Source: Paraburkholderia sp. (GTDB lineage: Bacteria; Pseudomonadota; Gammaproteobacteria; Burkholderiales; Burkholderiaceae). From it: a stretch of 64,000 nt of DNA. Both the position numbers and the translations under genes were made by a program. The notes under the pieces are model-generated. The model ran no database searches, was not told the DNA's origin, and saw nothing but the letters and a program-made list of their open reading frames with translations. Position 1 is the stretch's first letter; the number at the start of each line of letters is the position of its first letter. The stretch covers positions 62,001-126,000 of the forward strand of contig SCRN01000016.1 in the NCBI GenBank assembly GCA_004322045.1. Reading direction: 5' to 3'. Below are positions 34,575 through 52,524 of the stretch, one piece after another.

Positions 34575-34889
34575 ATGCCTAAGAAAACTCGCCAGACGGT
34601 TGTTGATCGCCATTTCCGGGGAGCAGCGCCAAGATCCGAAGACGCTAGCCGCGCTCCTCAAGCGTCCCCCGCACCCTCGGCGTTGCCGCCGGACGGATTC
34701 ACGCGCTGGTCTAGCCTGAAGCACATCATTCCGTTGAGCCATGAGTCAATCCGTCGGCGAGAACTAGCTAACCGGTTCCCGAAGCGGGTGCATCTTGGTT
34801 CCGCGCGTTGTGTGGCGTGGAAAAACAGCGAAATCTTAGAATGGCTGTCGGATCCGACGAGCTACCGCGCTTCGGAGCCTGCGCGATGA
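34575..34889 (+). CDS. AlpA-family regulator
   Basis: A 104-residue protein. After a Pro/Ala-rich N terminus, residues about 43-95 (FTRWSSLKHIIPLSHESIRR...FPKRVHLG...WKNSEILEWL) are the AlpA/excisionase-type winged HTH of P4-like elements. AlpA proteins activate integrase or excision genes and commonly control satellite mobilisation. Its stop overlaps the start of the KilA-N gene (ATGA), so the two are co-translated. Confidence 0.82.
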   Translation: MPKKTRQTVVDRHFRGAAPRSEDASRAPQASPAPSALPPDGFTRWSSLKHIIPLSHESIRRRELANRFPKRVHLGSARCVAWKNSEILEWLSDPTSYRASEPAR

Positions 34890-35593
34890 CGCGGACGATC
34901 CACAATGAGATTGGCCCCAGCGCTAGCAGGCACAGGGCCCGGATGACCCGCTCGAATGATGCGGCTTTTTGCATCGATTATGACGGCCAGGTGATCGAGT
35001 TCAGCACCGATGGCTGGATCAACGGTACGGCGGCAACAGCCCTGCGCAAAAAGCGGCTCGACAACTGGCTTCGCCTGAGCGAGACGAAGCGTTACATGCG
35101 CGCACTCGCCGACGCGCTAAATACCTTGAATGTGAGGGATTTGCTACGCACGACGCGCGGTCGCAACGGCGGGACGTGGTTACATCCAAAACTCGCTGTC
35201 TCGCTTGCGCGTTGGATCGATGTTCGCTTCGCCGTTTGGTGCGATCTGAAAATCGACCAAATTCTGCGTACCCAGTACTCGAGAGCCCAACTCCCAGCGC
35301 CTACGTCGAAGCGCAGCACGGTCGCCGATCGCGAGCGGTTGTTTGTGCTCGCCGGCAAGTGCGTGGCGCGCTACGGATGGCGTTTCACCATCGTCTACGT
35401 CGCGATGAGCACGTATGCGGGCTCGGCATGTTTTCGCACGATGGATTGCACTCAGGTCTGCGCCGCCGCGCTCTTCGGTCAGCACTTGCTCGACGGTGCG
35501 GTAACAGTAGACGAGTGGCAGCGGCTCGCCGCCAACCGTGCCTTGCTTGGTCGCGAGTCTGCGCAACTCTCGCTGTTCGGGGAGGTCGCGTGA
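34886..35593 (+). CDS. KilA-N domain protein
   Basis: A 235-residue protein from the ATG at 34886. The KilA-N DNA-binding domain spans about residues 28-125: IEFSTDGWINGTAATALRKK, NWLRLSETKRYM and TWLHPKLAVSLARWIDVRFA. KilA-N proteins are phage and plasmid antirepressor-like regulators. The C-terminal half is unassigned and Cys-containing. It overlaps the AlpA-like gene by four bases, and its stop overlaps a GTG that opens the next frame. Confidence 0.83.
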   Translation: MTRTIHNEIGPSASRHRARMTRSNDAAFCIDYDGQVIEFSTDGWINGTAATALRKKRLDNWLRLSETKRYMRALADALNTLNVRDLLRTTRGRNGGTWLHPKLAVSLARWIDVRFAVWCDLKIDQILRTQYSRAQLPAPTSKRSTVADRERLFVLAGKCVARYGWRFTIVYVAMSTYAGSACFRTMDCTQVCAAALFGQHLLDGAVTVDEWQRLAANRALLGRESAQLSLFGEVA

Positions 35594-36096
35594 ATTTCGC
35601 TATTGCGGCAACAGCCTGTGCACTTGCGATGATGGCGCACGATGCTGAAGGAGTTTGCACTCCTTCAGCATCGGCGTATACTTTGCACGTGCCTGAGACA
35701 GCAGGCACCGAGATTGGCGTCTCGAAATTGCGATTGGCGGACAACCGCCAACTGGCGGTATTTTTTCGTCCGTCGCCTTGTGTTCGCCTTCAATGGTCGG
35801 GCCTTGGCGGGGGAGCGCTTGCGCTCGCCGGTTCCCAATCGCACCGGTACGCCAACCCCGCCATGTGCCCGGCCACCCCAATTGGCGTTGGGAGCCGGGT
35901 TTCGAACCCTGCGATTGGAGCCAGCGCTATGCGCCAAATATCTGCTCGTCCCGAGCAAATCAAAACCCCTCTCGAAATTATCCGCGCTGCCTTGCGTGAG
36001 GCCGCTACCGGACCAATTGCTCTCGACGCGCTCGACGTGACCGAAGACGCTTCGCGTCTGGAGGAAATCGCCCGTGTGGAGGTGTGTCATGCGTGA
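35590..36096 (+). CDS. Ash-like open frame over the immunity region
   Basis: A 168-codon frame opening with a GTG that overlaps the KilA-N stop. Its middle reads WSGLGGGALALAGSQSHRYA followed by NPAMCPATPIGVGS, recalling the Ash family annotated over the immunity region of P4-like elements. A strong promoter, an RNA-like hairpin series and a terminator lie inside the frame, so much of it may be an artefact of structured RNA rather than protein. The last 60 codons (ARPEQIKTPLEIIRAALREA onward) look more protein-like and could be made from an internal ATG near 35929. Confidence 0.35.
   Translation: MNFAIAATACALAMMAHDAEGVCTPSASAYTLHVPETAGTEIGVSKLRLADNRQLAVFFRPSPCVRLQWSGLGGGALALAGSQSHRYANPAMCPATPIGVGSRVSNPAIGASAMRQISARPEQIKTPLEIIRAALREAATGPIALDALDVTEDASRLEEIARVEVCHA
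35640..35682 (+). promoter_or_regulatory. Promoter inside a 15-bp perfect inverted repeat
   Basis: Arms CGATGCTGAAGGAGT (35640-35654) and ACTCCTTCAGCATCG (35659-35673) flank the 4-base centre TTGC. A -35 TTGCAC (35655-35660) starts in that centre, and a -10 TATACT (35677-35682) follows after 16 bp. The repeat therefore covers the -35 and spacer, an ideal operator position. No U-run follows, so it is not a terminator. Confidence 0.75.
35689..35766 (+). ncRNA. Compact hairpin RNA, P4 CI-RNA-like
   Basis: From the expected start seven bases after TATACT, about 78 nt hold three back-to-back hairpins: GTGCCTG/CAGGCAC (35689-35708), CGAGA/TCTCG with loop TTGGCG (35709-35724), and TTGGCGG/CCGCCAA (35734-35751). 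The last is mutually exclusive with CCGCC/GGCGG (35745-35758) followed by TATTTTTT, a Rho-independent terminator. TTGGCG recurs at 35804 and 35882, and its complement CGCCAA at 35850, so the RNA can pair with the leader downstream. This is the logic of the P4 immunity RNA, which causes premature termination. The similarity is structural; I cannot show homology. Confidence 0.6.
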
Positions 36097-36180
36097 CTGC
36101 CTTTTGAAGCAATTCGGTTCGAGCGGGCTGCCCTCGCAAGTCGCAGTGCTGTTGGAGTACGCGCACGCCGTTGCGCGTGG
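36089..36180 (+). pseudogene. 5' fragment of a satellite gene split by an IS21-like element
   Basis: ATG at 36089 with GGAGG-like GGAGGTGTG upstream encodes MRDCLLKQFGSSGLPSQVAV and ten more residues up to the IS boundary. Read-through into the IS would stop at 36238. Joined to 39588-39768 after removing the IS and one CGTGG target copy, the frame is uninterrupted for 90 codons. The start overlaps the end of the Ash-like frame. Small, Ala-rich helical phage-type protein of unknown function. Confidence 0.75.
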
Positions 36181-36573
36181 TGTGAACGCCGGTCTAAATC
36201 CGACACTAAACGACGGCGTTCCGGGATCGAGCCATTGAGCGGCCGGATCTTATTGCGCGATGTGTAGGGAAGGTAGAGCTGGGCATTGACGACGCTTTGC
36301 GCGTCGTAAGGAGCCCGTAGGGCGAGTGCAGACGCGCAAAGCGCGGTGAGGGATGACGGTGCGCAGCGGGTGCGGTAGAAAGGCATACCGCCGAAGAAAC
36401 TACCGGCGCGACACCGGTAAAACCGCCAAGTTCACCCCGGAGTCGCGCCACACAGGACATATGCAAGGCCACGGGGCCAGGCACAGGGACACGTGCAGCC
36501 GCAGTATTCCACGGCTGGTGGTCCCTGTCGATATCGATATCGACCTGCCTTCGGCGTTCCATGGGGACCGCCG

Positions 36574-37017
36574 ATGCAGCCCACGGGCCGCTTCTTTCTG
36601 TGCGCCCGCTGTCGGGCGCAGGTGTTCATTTGTCGCCGCTGTGATCGCGGCCAGATCTATTGCGCCAACGGCTGTGCCCAGGCGGCCCGCCGCGTGAGTC
36701 TGCGCGAAGCGGCCCAGCGTTACCAGCACTCTCGCCGTGGACGTCTTGCCCATGCGCAGCGCGCCCGTCGTTACCGGGCACGACTCAATAAAGTGACGCA
36801 TCACGGTTCACCCGCGACGCCGCCCAGTGCTCTACTGCCTGCGGACTCGATGCGCGCTGCTGTCGCTCATCATCGCGTCATGGCACCGGTGCCGACCACG
36901 ACGCATTGCCACCTATGCGGCAATGCGTGTTCGCCGTTCGTCCGCCTTGGCCCGCTGCGCCGTCGAGCTCTCCATTCCATCTACCGATTGCGGGGAGGCT
37001 CTAAAGGTGACGATTGA
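36574..37017 (+). CDS. IS21-associated zinc-ribbon-like protein
   Basis: A 147-residue protein starting [20 protein letters not shown]. Cysteines are arranged CARC, CRRC and CANGC within residues 9-35, a likely zinc-binding module, followed by a strongly basic segment and a less organised tail with a further CHLCGNAC. It precedes and overlaps istA by 11 bases. Such accessory ORFs occur in some IS21 relatives; a DNA-binding helper role for transposition is inference. Confidence 0.65.
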
Positions 37018-38506
37018 CGCTGAACTCGAAGCCCATATCCTGCGGCTCTATCACGTCGAGAAGTGGCGCTGCGGCACCATCGCGCGGCAACTGCACGTGC
37101 ATCGCGACACCGTCAAACGGGTGCTCGCACAGGCAGGGCTGCCTCGTCATGGACCGGCGCCGCGCGCGTCGATGATCGAGCCATATCTGCCGTTCATTGG
37201 CCGGACGCTCGAGAAGTATCCGACGCTCACCGCCAGTCGCCTCTACGGCATGGTGCGCGAGCGCGGCTATCAGGGCGGGCCCACGCACTTCCGGCATCTG
37301 ATCTCGCTGCACCGGCCGCGGCCGCCTGCCGAAGCGTACCTGCGGCTACGCACGTTGCCCGGCGAACAGATGCAATGCGACTGGGGTCACTTCGGTCACT
37401 TGCAGATCGGTCGTGCACGTCGGCCCTTGATGGCCTTCGTGATGGTGCTCTCGTATTCGCGCGATCTGTATCTGCGCTTCTTCTACGACGCGCGCATGGA
37501 GAACTTCCTGCGCGGTCATATCGGTGCCTTCACCCGCTGGGGTGGGCTCGGCAGGGTCATCCTCTACGACAACCTGAAAAGCGCCGTGCTCGAACGCCAG
37601 GGCGAGGCCATCCGTTTCCATCCGACGCTGCTCGCCTTCGCCGCGCACTACCGGTTCGAGCCCAGACCGGTGGCCATTGCGCGCGGCAACGAGAAGGGGC
37701 GAGTTGAGCGTGCAATTCGTCATGTCCGCGACGCGTTCTTCGCGGCCAGGCAGTTCACCGATCTGGACGATCTGAATGCACAAGCCGAGCACTGGTGCCG
37801 CACGCAGGCGGCCGAGCGCCCGTGTCCGGAGGATCGAGCGATCAGCGTGCGCCAGGCGTTCGCCCAAGAGCAGCCCACGCTGCTTGCGCTACCCGAGAAC
37901 CCGTATCCCGTCGAGGAAACGCTCGCCGTTAAGGTCGGCAAGACACCCTACGTACGCTTCGATCTGAACGACTACTCGATCCCGCACACGCACGTGCGGC
38001 GCACGCTGACGATACGCGCCGATCTCGAGCAGGTACGCGTGCTCGACGGCGCCGAGATCATTGCCCGCCACGCTCGCAGTTTCGATCGCGGCGCGCAAAT
38101 CGAAGAGCCCGTTCACATCGAGACGCTCGTCGGCGTCAAACGGGAGGCCCGTCATCATCGCGGTATGGGTCGCTTGGCCAAAGCCGCCCCTGCTAGCCAA
38201 GACCTGCTGCGTCGCGCGGCTGAACGCAATGCGAATCTGGGCACCATCACGGCGGCGTTGCTGCGTCTGCTCGAACGCTACGGCGCCGCGCAATTGCAGG
38301 CCGCGATCGGCGATGCGCTCGAAAGCGGTGTGCCGCACCCGAACGCCGTGCGCCTGGCGCTGGAGCGCCGTCGCGAAGCGCGTCAATTACCCCCACCGCT
38401 GGCTGTATGCCTGCCGCCGCACGTACGCCAGAAGGACACGCCGGTTCGACCACACCGGCTCGATACCTACGACCAACTTGCCGGAGGCTCCGATGAGCTC
38501 GCTTGA
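37007..38506 (+). CDS. istA: IS21-family transposase IstA
   Basis: A 499-residue transposase. The GTG at 37007 has GGGGAGG eight bases upstream; the longer frame from 36827 overlaps the zinc-ribbon ORF and is not family-like. An N-terminal helix-turn-helix ([20 protein letters not shown]) is followed by the RNase H-like catalytic core with the DDE acidic residues in [19 protein letters not shown] and [16 protein letters not shown]. The IstB gene overlaps its end by 14 bases. It appears intact. Confidence 0.93.
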
Positions 38507-39266
38507 ATCATTGCGTACGCGCGCGCAGGAATTGCGGTTGCATGGGCTGTTGGCCCGCTGGACGGAAGTCGCGCAGGAGCCGTGGGTCGCCCCGCTCGTG
38601 CAGTGGGAAGAAGACGAGCGAGCCCGTCGCTCGCTCGAGCGGCGCATCAGGGAATCCCATTTGGGCGGCTTCAAAGCCTTGTGCGACTTCGATTGGGCTT
38701 GGCCGTCACGATGCGATCGCGGCGCCATCGAAGAGCTGATGACGCTCGGGTTCATGAAGGACGCCGCCAACGTTGTGCTCATCGGCCCGAACGGCGTGGG
38801 CAAGTCGACGCTAGCGAAGAACATCGCGCATCAGGCGCTCGTGCATGGGCACACGGTCCTGTTCACCACCGCCGGCAACATGCTGGGTGAACTGGCCGCG
38901 CTCGATAGCGATTCAACGTTGCGCCGGCGCTTGCGTCGCTATGCTGCGCCCGACGTCCTTGTAATCGACGAGGTCGGATACCTCTCGTACTCGAATCGCC
39001 ATGCGGATCTGCTGTTCGAGCTGATCAGCCGGAGATACCAGAACAGCAGCACGATCGTGACATCGAATCGACCGTTTGCCGAATGGCACGAAGTGTTCCC
39101 GAACGCCGCCTGTGTCGTCTCGCTCGTCGATCGCCTTGTGCATCTGGCCGAGGTCATCTCGATCGAAGGCGAATCGTATCGCCTGAAGGAAGCTCGCGAG
39201 CGGGCTTACAAACGCGCCCGCCAGCGTGGTCCCGGCAAATCAGCAAAGGCAGGTGTGTCGTCATGA
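38493..39266 (+). CDS. istB: IS21-family AAA+ helper ATPase IstB
   Basis: A 257-residue DnaC-like ATPase that selects target DNA and stimulates IstA. Walker A is GPNGVGKST (near residue 98), Walker B is [13 protein letters not shown], and sensor 1 is [11 protein letters not shown]. The ATG at 38493 lies within the end of istA, preceded by GGAGG. It is intact and its stop overlaps the start of the next small ORF (ATGA). Confidence 0.94.
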
Positions 39267-39478
39267 AAGCCGCGCCGTTGCCTTCCGGCCGAACGCGCGG
39301 CTTGAGCTTCGTCGTGCCCGACGACTGGACGCCCGAGCAGGCGCTCGCCGTGTTCGAGCTACTCGACGACCTGCGTGAAGTGATTTGCGCCCGCTATCTG
39401 CCCGACATGCAGCGGGTCCTGCACGAAGATCGCCGGCAACACGAGCTGCCACTCAACGAGCGCGATCCGCCGTTCTGA
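39263..39478 (+). CDS. Small accessory ORF of the IS21-like element
   Basis: A 71-residue protein, [20 protein letters not shown] onward, with WTPEQALAVFELLDDLREVI as a probable helix. It overlaps the istB stop by four bases (ATGA), so it is translated with it. Function unknown; its position inside the IS ends and coupling to istB suggest it is part of the transposition operon. Confidence 0.65.
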   Translation: MKAAPLPSGRTRGLSFVVPDDWTPEQALAVFELLDDLREVICARYLPDMQRVLHEDRRQHELPLNERDPPF

Positions 39479-39493
39479 TCGATGTCACGGATG

Positions 39494-39520
39494 ACAAAGG
39501 GGCCTTCGCGGCCCCTTTGT
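39494..39520 (+). terminator. Terminator at the end of the IS operon
   Basis: Perfect 11-bp stem ACAAAGGGGCC / GGCCCCTTTGT with loop TTCGC, followed by TCTTG. It ends the IS transcript before the right end. Confidence 0.75.
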
Positions 39521-39587
39521 TCTTGAGTGATTCGCTCAACCTTGCGCCGTCGTTTAACGTCGGTTTTACACCGGCGCTAACACGTGG

Positions 39588-39768
39588 CGGGGAGGCTGCG
39601 ATTCGAGTGGCGCGCGTGAGCGCAGTGCAGCGTGAACTAGGCGAAGCCCTCGCCATGGGAAATGGTGACTCCGATCATTTGCTGGCGCTGGCTCAGGCTG
39701 CGTCGGAATTGCTCGGTGACCGTCTGGAAGCCTTGGCCGAAAGCACGCACCACGATGGCGAGAGCTAA
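39588..39768 (+). pseudogene. 3' fragment of the IS-split satellite gene
   Basis: Continues the 36089 fragment in frame: GGEAAIRVARVSAVQRELGE onward to the TAA at 39766-39768. The last 14 bases overlap the start of the next gene. The fragment has no obvious start of its own apart from internal ATGs. A helical Ala/Leu-rich C-terminal half is consistent with a small coiled or dimeric phage protein. Confidence 0.7.
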
Positions 39769-40294: not shown

Positions 40295-40380
40295 GACCCT
40301 CTAGAAGTGCCATCTCCCCACTGTTTCAAACGGTGAGGGGGCAGAGTGATCTTGTGAAATAGAGATGGAGGATTGTGAAA

Positions 40381-40782
40381 ATGGCCAACCTCGAAAGGCA
40401 GGCTGCCCAGCTAGCGGCATCGCTACGAAGATTGGACTTCAGCGAAGAGGAAATCGCACGACGCATTCAGAGCGCATTGGACAGCCGCGCGCGCAGGCAA
40501 AAGAAGATGGTCAAGCCCCACAGTGCTAGGAGGTTCGATGGCTGCGCGAGCATATCGGCGACTGCCGGGCGGTTGGGCCTTCAGCGAGCGGCCATGTTCG
40601 AGCGGCTGCGCTGCGAGGGCTGGGTGTTTCGGGCCGAGAACGGGTGGTGGGCAACCGACGACGCGTTGTCCGCTGGTTGGGCCGTAATGCGCGGTTCCCG
40701 CACAATTCGTTGGCCGCAACTCACCGAGTCCGGGGTGCAGGAAATTGCTCGCCGCATGGGCATCGTACTTGGAGCGCGATAA
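40381..40782 (+). CDS. KilAC-like phage antirepressor C-domain protein
   Basis: About 133 residues from the ATG at 40381; a GTG two codons earlier is possible, both behind ATGGAGGA. Residues about 60-130 (SATAGRLGLQRAAMFERLRC, GWVFRAENGWWATDDALSAG, LTESGVQEIARRMG) match the KilAC/ANT domain at the end of phage antirepressors. Residues 1-45 are a helical, basic segment. It follows the iteron region and precedes a 64-codon gene, probably in one operon. Confidence 0.65.
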   Translation: MANLERQAAQLAASLRRLDFSEEEIARRIQSALDSRARRQKKMVKPHSARRFDGCASISATAGRLGLQRAAMFERLRCEGWVFRAENGWWATDDALSAGWAVMRGSRTIRWPQLTESGVQEIARRMGIVLGAR

Positions 40783-41896: not shown

Positions 41897-42508
41897 ATGG
41901 AGATGAACTTCAATTTTCCGGTTGATGAAAGCTGCCCCAACGATCTTCGACGGGCGTTCTTCGAAGCACTGAAAGATCCCAGCACCCAACGCATCGCCGG
42001 GGCCGTGGCGAGCACAGCCTCACAACTGAGCGAAGAGTTCGGGCGGATCGCAGAGATGCGACAGGCCGTTCTTCTCGCGCATACGATGGGGATGAACGTC
42101 CGCGAGGTGCTGCAAGACCGGCTCGACGCCTTGCGCGCACAGCGCGTAGGTATGCAAAAGTTTGTCGCTGACCTCAAGCGCTTTCAATCGGACCAGGCCG
42201 AACGCCACTGCGCCGACCTTGCTCGCTGCCGACCACTACTCCTCGAAGGTGACCGTCAAATCGAAGCGCTTCGTTTAAAGGTTCGCGGCTACGAAAGATC
42301 ACGCGAGTCAATGATCGATAGCCTGCGTTCGGCAGGACTTGACGATGCAGCGATAGAGCGCGTAGGTGTTACGCCGACGCCCGATGACCGTGCCGCATGG
42401 CTAACCGAGATAGCTTCGCTCGAAGACCGTATCGCGCGCGCCCGAGCATTCGTGGCGTCCGGTCCGCTGTATGACGTGACGCTCTTTGCCGAGGGCTCAA
42501 ATGCCTAA
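41897..42508 (+). CDS. Helical hypothetical protein of the satellite
   Basis: A 203-residue protein starting MEMNFNFPVDESCPNDLRRA. It is predominantly helical with likely coiled-coil stretches (residues about 70-190, including QRVGMQKFVADLKRFQSDQA). No family recognised. First gene of a rightward run in which most neighbours overlap (8, 8, 20 and 17 bases), a compact phage-like operon that ends at 47615. Confidence 0.65.
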   Translation: MEMNFNFPVDESCPNDLRRAFFEALKDPSTQRIAGAVASTASQLSEEFGRIAEMRQAVLLAHTMGMNVREVLQDRLDALRAQRVGMQKFVADLKRFQSDQAERHCADLARCRPLLLEGDRQIEALRLKVRGYERSRESMIDSLRSAGLDDAAIERVGVTPTPDDRAAWLTEIASLEDRIARARAFVASGPLYDVTLFAEGSNA

Positions 42509-47675: not shown

Positions 47676-48485
47676 ATGCGCGTATTCACGAAAGCACTAC
47701 TGACCGCAGCACTCTTTGCCGTTGCCGTACCTGCTATGGCCGATAGGGCCAACCTCGATCGCGCGATGGTCGCAGCGTTCAAGAGCTACCACGAGGGTGG
47801 CGTGCAACAGCTGTACCAGGATGCCAGCATGTGTACGACGGGCGTCGACTTCAACAGCCCGACCGAAAGCCCGGAGAAGCAATCGGAATATTGCATGGCG
47901 TTTGAATACACTGGCTTCCTGATCCTCGATCACGAAGGAGAGCTCGGCGACGCGCAGTATTTCAGTTCCGTTGGGGTGCTCTTGCGTGCGGATCAGAACC
48001 TTGAGCGCGCCGCCGTAATTTCAACGCCAGAGCAGCTAAATGCGTATTTCGTGCCGCGCCTTGGCTACGTCAAAAAGAAGGTGCTCACGCGTCTCGACGA
48101 CACTAGGAAGTCGGTGGGGCAAAATGCATCTGCTAGCGTTCAGTCGCCATCTGGCTCCAATCGGCTTTCGACTACGAAACACGTGAGCGCAAAGGCTATT
48201 TCGAGCGATGGCCCAGCCGTGAGACGCTGCGGCTGGATTTCAAACACGATGCCGTCCAACCTGGGATTAACGGATCGCGATGGAACTTGGACGATCGCAA
48301 ATATTTCCGAGGAGGCTGACGGCATCGAGCATATGCCGAATACTGACAAGGGCGACTCTTGCGGATGCCTGACCGTTGAGACAAACCGCCAAAGCATGAG
48401 AATCACGAAGGTGCTGGGTGGGAATTTGATTCCTATCGCAAGGTGCGAGCGCGATAAGAGCATTAAAAGTCTGTCCGCAGAGTAA
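47676..48485 (+). CDS. Secreted protein with C-terminal DUF4087-like domain
   Basis: A 269-residue protein with a clear signal peptide (MRVFTKALLTAALFAVAVPA, cleaved near AMA-DR). Residues about 25-140 are of unknown fold with two Cys. After a Ser-rich linker, residues about 182-262 (RRCGWISNTMPSNLGLTDRD, GTWTIANISEEADG, CGCLTVETNRQSMRI) resemble DUF4087. It lies 60 bases after the lysozyme gene and is probably an envelope-exported accessory (moron) gene rather than a virion component. Confidence 0.7.
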   Translation: MRVFTKALLTAALFAVAVPAMADRANLDRAMVAAFKSYHEGGVQQLYQDASMCTTGVDFNSPTESPEKQSEYCMAFEYTGFLILDHEGELGDAQYFSSVGVLLRADQNLERAAVISTPEQLNAYFVPRLGYVKKKVLTRLDDTRKSVGQNASASVQSPSGSNRLSTTKHVSAKAISSDGPAVRRCGWISNTMPSNLGLTDRDGTWTIANISEEADGIEHMPNTDKGDSCGCLTVETNRQSMRITKVLGGNLIPIARCERDKSIKSLSAE

Positions 48486-51000: not shown

Positions 51001-52218
51001 TCAAGCTGCCGCGCCGGTAAAGGGCATTATTGTCGCTCCGATCTTGAGCCCGTCGAGGTAATCCGACCAACGTTGCATCATCCTACGTCGCTCCGGCAGG
51101 TATTCGGCGTGGACATACGCCGCTGTGACCTGATTTCGCTCGGCATGCGCCATCTGGCGCTCGACAACGTCCCGGCTGTAACCGAGTTCGCGGAGCGCCG
51201 TCGCCGCCAAGCCCCGGAAGCCATGACCGGTCATCCGAGACTTGTATCCCATCCGATATAGCGCGTACAGCATCGTGTTGTTAGAGATAGGCCCCCGGCC
51301 CTGGACGCTATAGAAAACGAAGCGATGCGGACCATTGATTGCCCGAAGCTGAGCAAGGACTTCGAGCGCTTGCCGCGACAGCGGCACAATGTGCGGATCG
51401 CGCATCTTCATCCGCTCGGCCGGGATGCGCCATTCGGCCGCAGCTTCGTCAAACTCCGACCATTCGGCCCGGATCATCTCCTTGGTCCGCACGAACGTCA
51501 GCGCCATGAAACGAAGTGCGAGCCGTGTGACGAGGTCGCCCTGATATTCATCGATGTCGCGCATCAGTTGCGGAATCTCAGCGGCCTTCACACGGGCCAT
51601 ATGCTGCACGCCCGGGCTCTTCTTCAGCACTGTCTCGGCGTCGATATCCGCTGCCGGGTTTCGCGCGCAGCGGCCAGTCATGATGCCGTATTGAAACACC
51701 GCGCGAGAGCGCTGTAGCACACGCTTAGCCGTTTCCCGAACGCCACGGGCCTCGACCGTTTTCACGATTTCGAGGATCTCGGGTGCTTCAATGCTCGCGA
51801 TTGGGCGCGTACCGATTCGCGGAAAGGCGTCGATTTCTAAGCAGTTGATGACTTTGCCCGCGTAGGTTTCCGACCAGCCTGCCCGCTGTGCCTCAAACCA
51901 CTCGCGGGCGACTGCCTCGAATGAGTTGGCCGCCGCGATCTTGGCTGCGCGCTTGTCGGCTTTCTTCGCCTCGCTCGGGTCGACACCGGAAGCAAGCTTC
52001 TCGCGCGCAGCATCGCGGCGTTTGCGAGCGTCGGAAAGCGACACGTCTGGATAGACGCCCAGTGCGAGGCTTTTTTCCTTGCCCTCGCTTCGGTACTTGA
52101 AGACCCAGCGCTTCCCGCCCGCCGGCGTGATCAGCAGAAGCAGACCTCCGCCGTCATAGAGCTTTTGCTGCTTTTCAGCAGGCTTTGCGGTGCGGACTTT
52201 CAGGTCGGTGAGAGCCAT
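51001..52218 (-). CDS. P4-type tyrosine integrase
   Basis: A 405-residue recombinase. The N-terminal DUF4102 arm-binding domain reads MALTDLKVRTAKPAEKQQKL and YDGGGLLLLITPAGGKRWVF, followed by the SAM-like core-binding domain and the catalytic domain. The catalytic set is visible as ALRFMALTFVRTKEMIRAEW (Arg), MTGHGFRGLAAT (H-x-x-R) and the nucleophile Tyr in AAYVHAEYLPERRRM. It starts 176 bases from the 3' end of the tRNA-Arg gene and reads into the element, the standard layout for tRNA-targeting islands. It appears intact. Confidence 0.94.
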   Translation of the reverse strand: MALTDLKVRTAKPAEKQQKLYDGGGLLLLITPAGGKRWVFKYRSEGKEKSLALGVYPDVSLSDARKRRDAAREKLASGVDPSEAKKADKRAAKIAAANSFEAVAREWFEAQRAGWSETYAGKVINCLEIDAFPRIGTRPIASIEAPEILEIVKTVEARGVRETAKRVLQRSRAVFQYGIMTGRCARNPAADIDAETVLKKSPGVQHMARVKAAEIPQLMRDIDEYQGDLVTRLALRFMALTFVRTKEMIRAEWSEFDEAAAEWRIPAERMKMRDPHIVPLSRQALEVLAQLRAINGPHRFVFYSVQGRGPISNNTMLYALYRMGYKSRMTGHGFRGLAATALRELGYSRDVVERQMAHAERNQVTAAYVHAEYLPERRRMMQRWSDYLDGLKIGATIMPFTGAAA

Positions 52219-52324
52219 GTATGCGTGCGCTGGGGGTTGTCGTTGACGAAAAATGGTCGCAACCCCCAGAACGCCCCCCGTCTAGGGGTTGTTTTCGCTG
52301 GTGGTCGGTTGTGGAAGTGTGCAA

Positions 52325-52358
52325 CAAAAAACCCCGCGAAGCCAAGCTCAGCGGGGTT
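52325..52358 (-). terminator. Terminator downstream of tRNA-Arg
   Basis: AACCCCGC (52330-52337) pairs with GCGGGGTT (52351-52358). On the minus strand the stem is followed by a run of T, so it ends the tRNA transcript. It lies inside the element, which therefore supplies a replacement terminator. Confidence 0.75.
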
Positions 52359-52393
52359 GTTGTGTGAAACGTTGTGAAACCTTGCAGCTTTTA

Positions 52394-52468
52394 TGGTCCC
52401 CCCGACAGGAATCGAACCTGTATCTAGCGCTTAGGAGGCACTTGTTCTATCCATTGAACTACGGGGAG
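52394..52468 (-). tRNA. tRNA-Arg (anticodon CCU)
   Basis: 75 nt including an encoded CCA. Acceptor CTCCCCG pairs with CGGGGGG, the T arm is ACAGG/CCTGT around TTCGATT, the anticodon stem is AGTGC/GCGCT, and the anticodon loop CTCCTAA carries CCT. The 3' end faces the integrase and the 15 terminal bases serve as the candidate attR. Confidence 0.96.
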
Positions 52469-52524
52469 GATGTGCTCATCGGGCGGCGAGCCCGAATACG
52501 ACGGCGCGCGCAAAGTATAGCAAA

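Follow-up and report, generated by a model that had tools for sequence, protein, structure and literature searches.

A probable prophage C4-type antisense-RNA immunity module in Paraburkholderia sp.

In a 64,000-nucleotide stretch of Paraburkholderia sp. DNA (contig SCRN01000016.1, positions 62,001–126,000; referred to below as the window), the region downstream of two phage-type genes combines a promoter-like site embedded in a perfect dyad, a predicted RNA with three hairpins, a terminator and several short complementary repeats. This arrangement raises the question of which RNA is the effector of a putative immunity switch, and which sequences are its targets. C4-type antisense-RNA immunity switches are familiar from phages P1 and P4, and an earlier reading of the DNA made from its letters (the sequence-only reading) had proposed a switch of the P4 type. 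The features identified are given below (positions within the window).

34575–34889, + strand: AlpA-type phage regulator gene (Pfam PF05930, E 1.9e-8)
34886–35593, + strand: KilA-N domain gene, directly upstream of the locus (Pfam PF04383, E 1.6e-19)
35640–35673, no strand assigned: perfect dyad with 15-bp arms and a 4-nt spacer, centred on the −35 sequence; proposed operator
35655–35660 (−35) and 35677–35682 (−10), + strand: sigma-70-like promoter TTGCAC-16-TATACT, read from the sequence and by pattern scan
35676–35728, + strand: c4-a1b1 match (Rfam, 30.1 bits; gathering threshold 46.7), from a relaxed-threshold search
35689–35765, + strand: isrK/seqA-like leader RNA with three hairpins (Rfam isrK, 47.4 bits; gathering threshold 50)
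35714–35720, + strand: a1 target, TTGGCGT, within the hairpin 2 loop region; complement of a′
35729–35737, + strand: b1 target, TGCGATTGG, complement of b′; overlaps the anti-terminator
35734–35751, + strand: anti-terminator hairpin TTGGCGG-ACAA-CCGCCAA, the third hairpin of the predicted fold
35744–35766, + strand: intrinsic terminator stem and U tract (stem 35744–35759, then ATTTTTT), from a pattern scan
35789–35880, + strand: C4 antisense RNA (Rfam RF01695, 71.2 bits, E 7.1e-12)
35835–35843, + strand: b′ element, CCAATCGCA, in the C4 loop
35849–35855, + strand: a′ element, ACGCCAA, in C4
35882–35888, + strand: a2 target, TTGGCGT, 7-nt complement of a′
35910–35918, + strand: b2 target, TGCGATTGG, in the ribosome-binding region of the next ORF; 9-nt complement of b′
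35929–36096, + strand: 55-aa ORF in the position of icd/orf45, member of an unnamed small-protein family
36181–39582, + strand: IS21-family element (istA, istB) that interrupts a second small ORF; 5-bp target duplication, CGTGG

The C4 RNA was assigned to RF01695 with a score well above the gathering threshold of 45 bits and over the full length of the model (1–87), and its a′ and b′ elements have 7-nt and 9-nt complements at a2 and b2, respectively. The two leader matches score below gathering, both for isrK (RF01394; 47.4 versus 50 bits, E 6.8e-9) and for c4-a1b1 (RF03163; 30.1 versus 46.7 bits, E 2e-5); despite the low c4-a1b1 score, the a1 and b1 complements are present in the leader. The immunity regions of three known elements were searched with the same models, which gave 74.9 bits (C4), 60.8 bits (isrK) and 44.1 bits (c4-a1b1, below gathering) for P4, 68.8, 35.1 (below gathering) and 51.0 bits for P1, and 69.0, 79.3 and 48.1 bits for Gifsy-1. 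In all three the leader precedes C4, which is the arrangement of the window. The sequence-only reading was right to propose an RNA switch of the P4 immunity type in which complementary elements recur. Its view that the sequence is unrelated to known switches was wrong, since the three models also hit P4, and in the order seen here; the searches of P4, P1 and Gifsy-1 rule that hypothesis out. The locus is very probably a prophage C4-type antisense-RNA immunity module, homologous to P1 c4, P4 CI and Gifsy-1 isrK. The system itself is already known, and the element adds another member to it, not a new system.

The roles of the two RNAs had also been misplaced: the three-hairpin RNA is the leader and target, and the antisense RNA is the C4 RNA downstream of it. 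The leader holds the place of P4 seqA, P1 a1/b1 and Gifsy-1 IsrK; from the sequence matches, the C4 RNA probably corresponds to P4 CI, and the three-hairpin RNA to seqA/IsrK. The opposite assignment, in which the RNA at 35689–35766 would itself be a P4 CI-like antisense effector of unrelated sequence, is favoured by the stable fold of the leader, which is predicted to be short and to end at a terminator, and by the complementarity of C4 elements to it. However, it is the downstream RNA that matches the C4 model, and P4, P1 and Gifsy-1 carry their isrK or a1/b1 models in the leader with C4 downstream, so that we regard this assignment as highly improbable. The locus is to be read with an effector of a known antisense-RNA kind, the hairpins being its target.

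The comparison with individual systems revealed both likenesses and differences. The deposited P1 annotation gives the order a1, b1, c4, a2, b2, icd, and the window has a1-b1-C4-a2-b2-small ORF, with a C4 score of 71.2 bits (P1, 68.8 bits) and, as in P1, b2 located where the small ORF begins. In contrast to P1 and P7, the letters of a′ and b′ differ, presumably giving another specificity, and IS21 is found where P1 has ant. NCBIfam does not class the small ORF as Icd-like, and its identification as Icd is unsupported; P1 Icd does match the corresponding model. A small regulator gene lies upstream in P4 (ORF88) as well as in the window (AlpA-type), but the prophage differs from P4 in having a head-morphogenesis-type gene (PHROG 1114). 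The primase alpha gene lies downstream of the P4 immunity region, and a Toprim-domain protein is found in three relatives of the locus (L036, L037 and L042); no primase was recognized among the nine ORFs Pfam-scanned between 34575 and 43340. In Gifsy-1, C4 lies directly downstream of isrK, the model that matches the window leader with 47.4 bits, below gathering; the upstream gene is antQ in Gifsy-1, whereas it encodes a KilA-N protein here. We equate the C4 match of Gifsy-1 with STnc1160, a stable RNA reported to lie downstream of IsrK (PMC4825925), and IsrK is, according to Hershko-Shalev et al., a structural homologue of P4 SeqA (PMC4825925).

The hexamers that had first drawn attention are all exactly where they had been placed (TTGGCG at 35714, 35734, 35804 and 35882; CGCCAA at 35746 and 35850), and a further CGCCAA is present at 35932. 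They differ in their roles: those at 35714, 35850 and 35882 belong to target or antisense elements, those at 35734 and 35746 form the anti-terminator and the terminator (the former sharing four bases with b1), and the one at 35804 is, according to the Rfam alignment, part of the C4 RNA's own stem. The C4 RNA at 35789–35880 and the TGCGATTGG/CCAATCGCA set had been overlooked. The b′ 9-mer (CCAATCGCA, 35835) and its complements (TGCGATTGG, 35729 and 35910) occur nowhere else on the + strand of the window. C4 RNAs of this family arise when RNase P cuts a longer transcript to about 77 nt; by analogy with the offsets of P1 C4, such cleavage is predicted to yield a mature C4 RNA of approximately 35795–35877, and the fold of 35795–35877 has a z-score of −4.68.

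Analysis of the distribution of C4 revealed its presence in 190 of the 398 Burkholderiaceae genomes searched, 184 of them with matches above the cut-off. Within the genus, 3 of 11 genomes have it, and none of 14 control genomes does; the genome carrying the window has one copy. We analyzed 93 C4 loci, comprising 33 from searches and 60 that were fetched as the top among the matches listed, of which 92 could be parsed (the exception being L069) into 76 distinct a′/b′ pairs, with 65 distinct b′ and 28 distinct a′ elements. A complement of at least 7 nt to the locus's own element was found for a′/upstream in 70 of the 76, for a′/downstream in 64, for b′/upstream in 59 and for b′/downstream in 62, compared to 1.6%, 0.5%, 2.7% and 2.7%, respectively, when each C4 was paired with a locus having a different element. 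The mean complement lengths were 6.93, 6.67, 7.36 and 8.01 (the last, b′/downstream, being the longest), and the highest values reached in 2000 permutations of partners were 5.24, 4.83, 4.89 and 4.80 in the same order. The sequence-only reading had made conservation of the elements in relatives one of its tests: their letters vary between relatives, but in the 76 loci their complementarity is kept. The data suggest that keys and targets co-vary in dozens of elements; if so, immunity specificity could be read off the sequence.

The leader is shared as well. Among 20 relatives chosen from the 60 fetched loci, an isrK match lies upstream of C4 in 19 (5 above gathering) and a c4-a1b1 match in 15 (none above gathering). 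Together with the matches in P4, P1 and Gifsy-1, this suggests that isrK, which is a family of its own in Rfam and carried no clan in the search output, forms the leader of the C4 module. The a1 element can lie inside a possible stem of at least 5 pairs in 65 of the 76 loci, compared to 37% of random positions, a loose control.

The predicted secondary structure of the 78 nt starting at 35689 contains hairpins 1 and 2 and a third (minimum free energy −35.4, z −4.29 against shuffles), in agreement with the three hairpins proposed for a putative RNA of about that length. The third hairpin (35734–35751) overlaps the terminator stem, so the two do exclude each other, as had been suggested. Taken alone, the terminator is not beyond chance, as shuffles of that 741-bp stretch average 1.0 such site. 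Its conservation across the relatives does exceed chance: of the 76 loci, 48 have a terminator-like site upstream of C4 (3.6% of mononucleotide shuffles), and 38 of these also have an upstream hairpin that uses the terminator's 5′ arm, compared to 33% of the shuffles with a terminator. By the same pattern, 28 of the 76 loci have no intrinsic terminator; therefore attenuation is not universal.

The position of b1 at the edge of the anti-terminator arm, which it partly overlaps, gives C4 pairing a predicted consequence. Masking of b1 raised the predicted terminator probability in the window from 0.045 to 1.000. In the 41 loci that have a terminator as well as a b1 of at least 6 nt, the mean rose from 0.444 to 0.787 (Wilcoxon 5e-7, a test that, like the shuffles, treats the loci as independent though they are related), with 19 loci rising by more than 0.2 and one falling; masking of a1 in these 41 loci gave a mean of 0.426. 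The response was not uniform, and locus L028 reached only 0.032 after masking of b1. For the 30 loci at or below 0.9, masking of b1 gave an increase of 0.472, whereas stretches lying entirely upstream of it gave 0.044; b1 exceeded every one of these stretches in 21 of the 30. Stretches starting 2–8 nt downstream of the b1 start raised the terminator about equally, and the effect is therefore that of covering the anti-terminator arm. On these folding models, C4 pairing is predicted to cause premature termination at the leader.

The 55-aa ORF gave no match in Pfam, PHROGs or NCBIfam, but its relatives (E below 1e-4) are the first ORF after C4 in 27 of the 71 other loci with a parsed ORF, and its profile reaches 29 of 72 loci, that of the window included, with E 2e-17 or better. 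Proteins of 55–58 aa from this family are the first to follow C4 in L067, L062 and L079, among others, and the members scanned have no Pfam, PHROG or NCBIfam match. A later ORF, scanned in four relatives, encodes a large Toprim-domain protein in L036, L037 and L042 and is without a match in L034. In the window, the IS21 element starts 84 bp beyond the 55-aa ORF. Genes beyond the insertion are probably no longer coupled to the switch, and the operon, being interrupted, may no longer be functional. Beyond the IS, a gene at 39689 is weakly replication-initiator-like (PHROG 678, E 1e-4), and an ORF at 40375–40782 contains a phage antirepressor (KilAC) domain (PF03374) at 22.1 bits, below the cut-off of 25.3. 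The latter ORF is possibly part of the former target operon, and an antirepressor-type product would suit a P1-like target, as in P1-type immunity C4 represses an antirepressor operon, icd-ant. For the KilA-N gene upstream, 27 pattern matches to relatives in genome contigs were obtained, none of which was confirmed.

Other phage-type genes lie farther along the window. The protein encoded at 42486–43340 matches PHROG 1114 (PmgG-like head morphogenesis) and has approximately 40% identity to a Xanthomonas phage protein. An integrase gene (PHROG 1) is located beside tRNA-Arg(cct) at 51001–52468; a search for an att site revealed no exact repeat of at least 14 nt between the tRNA region (52301–52480) and the rest of the window.

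The mechanism that we propose combines features of the P4 and P1 systems. In a lysogen, transcripts that pass the terminator would be processed into C4 RNA, which would then pair with a1 and b1 of newly made transcripts. Pairing with b1 would take away the 5′ arm of the anti-terminator, so that the terminator could form and transcription would stop, as with P4 CI. On readthrough transcripts, C4 would pair with a2 and b2, cover the start of the 55-aa ORF and silence the operon, as with P1 C4. The terminated leader, carrying a1 and b1, could in turn titrate C4. The authors of the IsrK study consider titration for IsrK and STnc1160 (PMC4825925), but in the same paper co-expression of STnc1160 strengthened IsrK-mediated growth arrest and did not weaken it. 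This result fits badly with simple titration.

Three other explanations bear on this mechanism. The leader might be a positive switch of the IsrK kind, opening the readthrough transcript in trans while cis pairing by the C4 region keeps it closed; an RNA of the isrK family would be expected to bind Hfq and to activate the readthrough mRNA in trans. Its isrK homology, the 19 of 20 relatives with isrK upstream of C4, and the activation of orf45-anrP by IsrK in trans (PMC4825925) all speak for such a role, but the IsrK work concerns a single prophage, and repression by C4 is compatible with it, so that both may hold; we consider the positive switch somewhat unlikely. A P1-like action alone, with C4 blocking translation at a2/b2 and the terminator setting the basal level, would agree with the b′/downstream complements being the longest (mean 8.01) and with the 28 of 76 loci in which the pattern finds no terminator. 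Against it, a1 and b1 are retained as well, and masking of b1 favours the terminator on average; we judge it quite improbable.

The proposed switch may also no longer serve this prophage. With IS21 (36181–39582) and its target duplication inside the second small ORF, the locus could be a dead remnant that is decaying and confers no immunity. Against this, the C4 sequence and its four targets are intact, as is the 55-aa ORF, and C4, which lies before the insertion, could still function in trans; we consider a dead remnant unlikely.

Whether C4 elements in one genome share a key was examined in a compilation of 135 entries, which includes 40 further regions; the entries come from 83 genomes, of which 23 have at least two; one duplicate was dropped (L016 and L125 overlap) and four entries were read by eye. 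None of the 118 within-genome pairs, among the matches listed, is identical in both a′ and b′, and a parse-tolerant criterion found one alike (L011/L044, in the ribosome-site half of b′ only). For the 50 entries of one genus, shuffles of genome labels, which ignore relatedness and draw on entries from among the matches listed, average 3.08 identical pairs, with none in 3.1% of shuffles. The tolerant test on the same 50 entries gave 0 observed pairs against a shuffle mean of 4.29, zero being reached in 0.8% of shuffles. The within-genome differences in keys are suggestive of immunity groups. We tentatively propose, as a possibility that we hold to be less than even, that C4 specificity is an evolving code, in which each element has its own a′/b′ key, b1 is the trigger at the anti-terminator and the isrK-type leader is a decoy, P1, P4 and IsrK being facets of one module. 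Tandem C4 loci, 268–837 bp apart and with different keys, were also observed in four genomes of one genus (L115, L122, L125 and L126).

The promoter region of the window has a feature of its own. The promoter-like TTGCAC-16-TATACT is present where it had been placed when the sequence is read directly, and a pattern scan also picked this site, in a different register with 9 of 12 matches. The 15-bp perfect inverted repeat over it, also noted earlier, is the longest in the window (spacer up to 12), and 20 Markov-resampled windows contained none longer than 12 bp. It shows no sign of being a conserved part of the module, as the next longest perfect dyad in the same stretch of the 76 loci has 9 bp. 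Viral and genome contigs (a set from which the window's own record was possibly excluded) contain no exact copy of its core, which, with up to 3 mismatches, occurs in its own genome only as itself. A search with the 14-mer half-site found one further site in the window with 2 mismatches and four with 3, among which no second operator was recognized. In P1, the C1 operator Oc4 overlaps the −35 sequence of a c4 promoter (in the deposited annotation, 48140–48156 and P2c4), and the dyad is in the matching place. Since it sits over the −35 sequence like Oc4, an operator is the simplest reading, and the dyad is most likely bound by a DNA-binding regulator of this phage. Two sub-threshold Rfam matches, one to mir-7143 that covers the dyad and one to COG2908 on the minus strand of the stretch, were taken as chance.

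Weinberg et al. (2010) listed c4 for Proteobacteria and c4-a1b1 for gamma-Proteobacteria, each along with phages (PMC2864571). The a1/b1 leader is now seen together with C4 across one bacterial family, the Burkholderiaceae. In the open-access literature we found a description neither of this combination in the family nor of the overlap between b1 and the anti-terminator; the original P1 and P4 papers may already contain one. A study of Acinetobacter reported many expressed C4-like RNAs, outlined the roles of a′ and b′ and the processing of P1/P7 C4 by RNase P, and suggested as targets incoming phages or, more likely, bacterial transcripts (PMC5320573). The C4 RNAs analyzed here have complements in cis in most loci.

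A search for a related phage by DNA similarity with positions 35560–36240 gave no match. Two Burkholderia plasmids, L104 and L105, contain DNA similar to positions 35721–35933 and 35691–35892 of the window. Both plasmids were typed as conjugative; one of the matches is located approximately 3.7 kb before a phage tape-measure gene and the other beside trfA.
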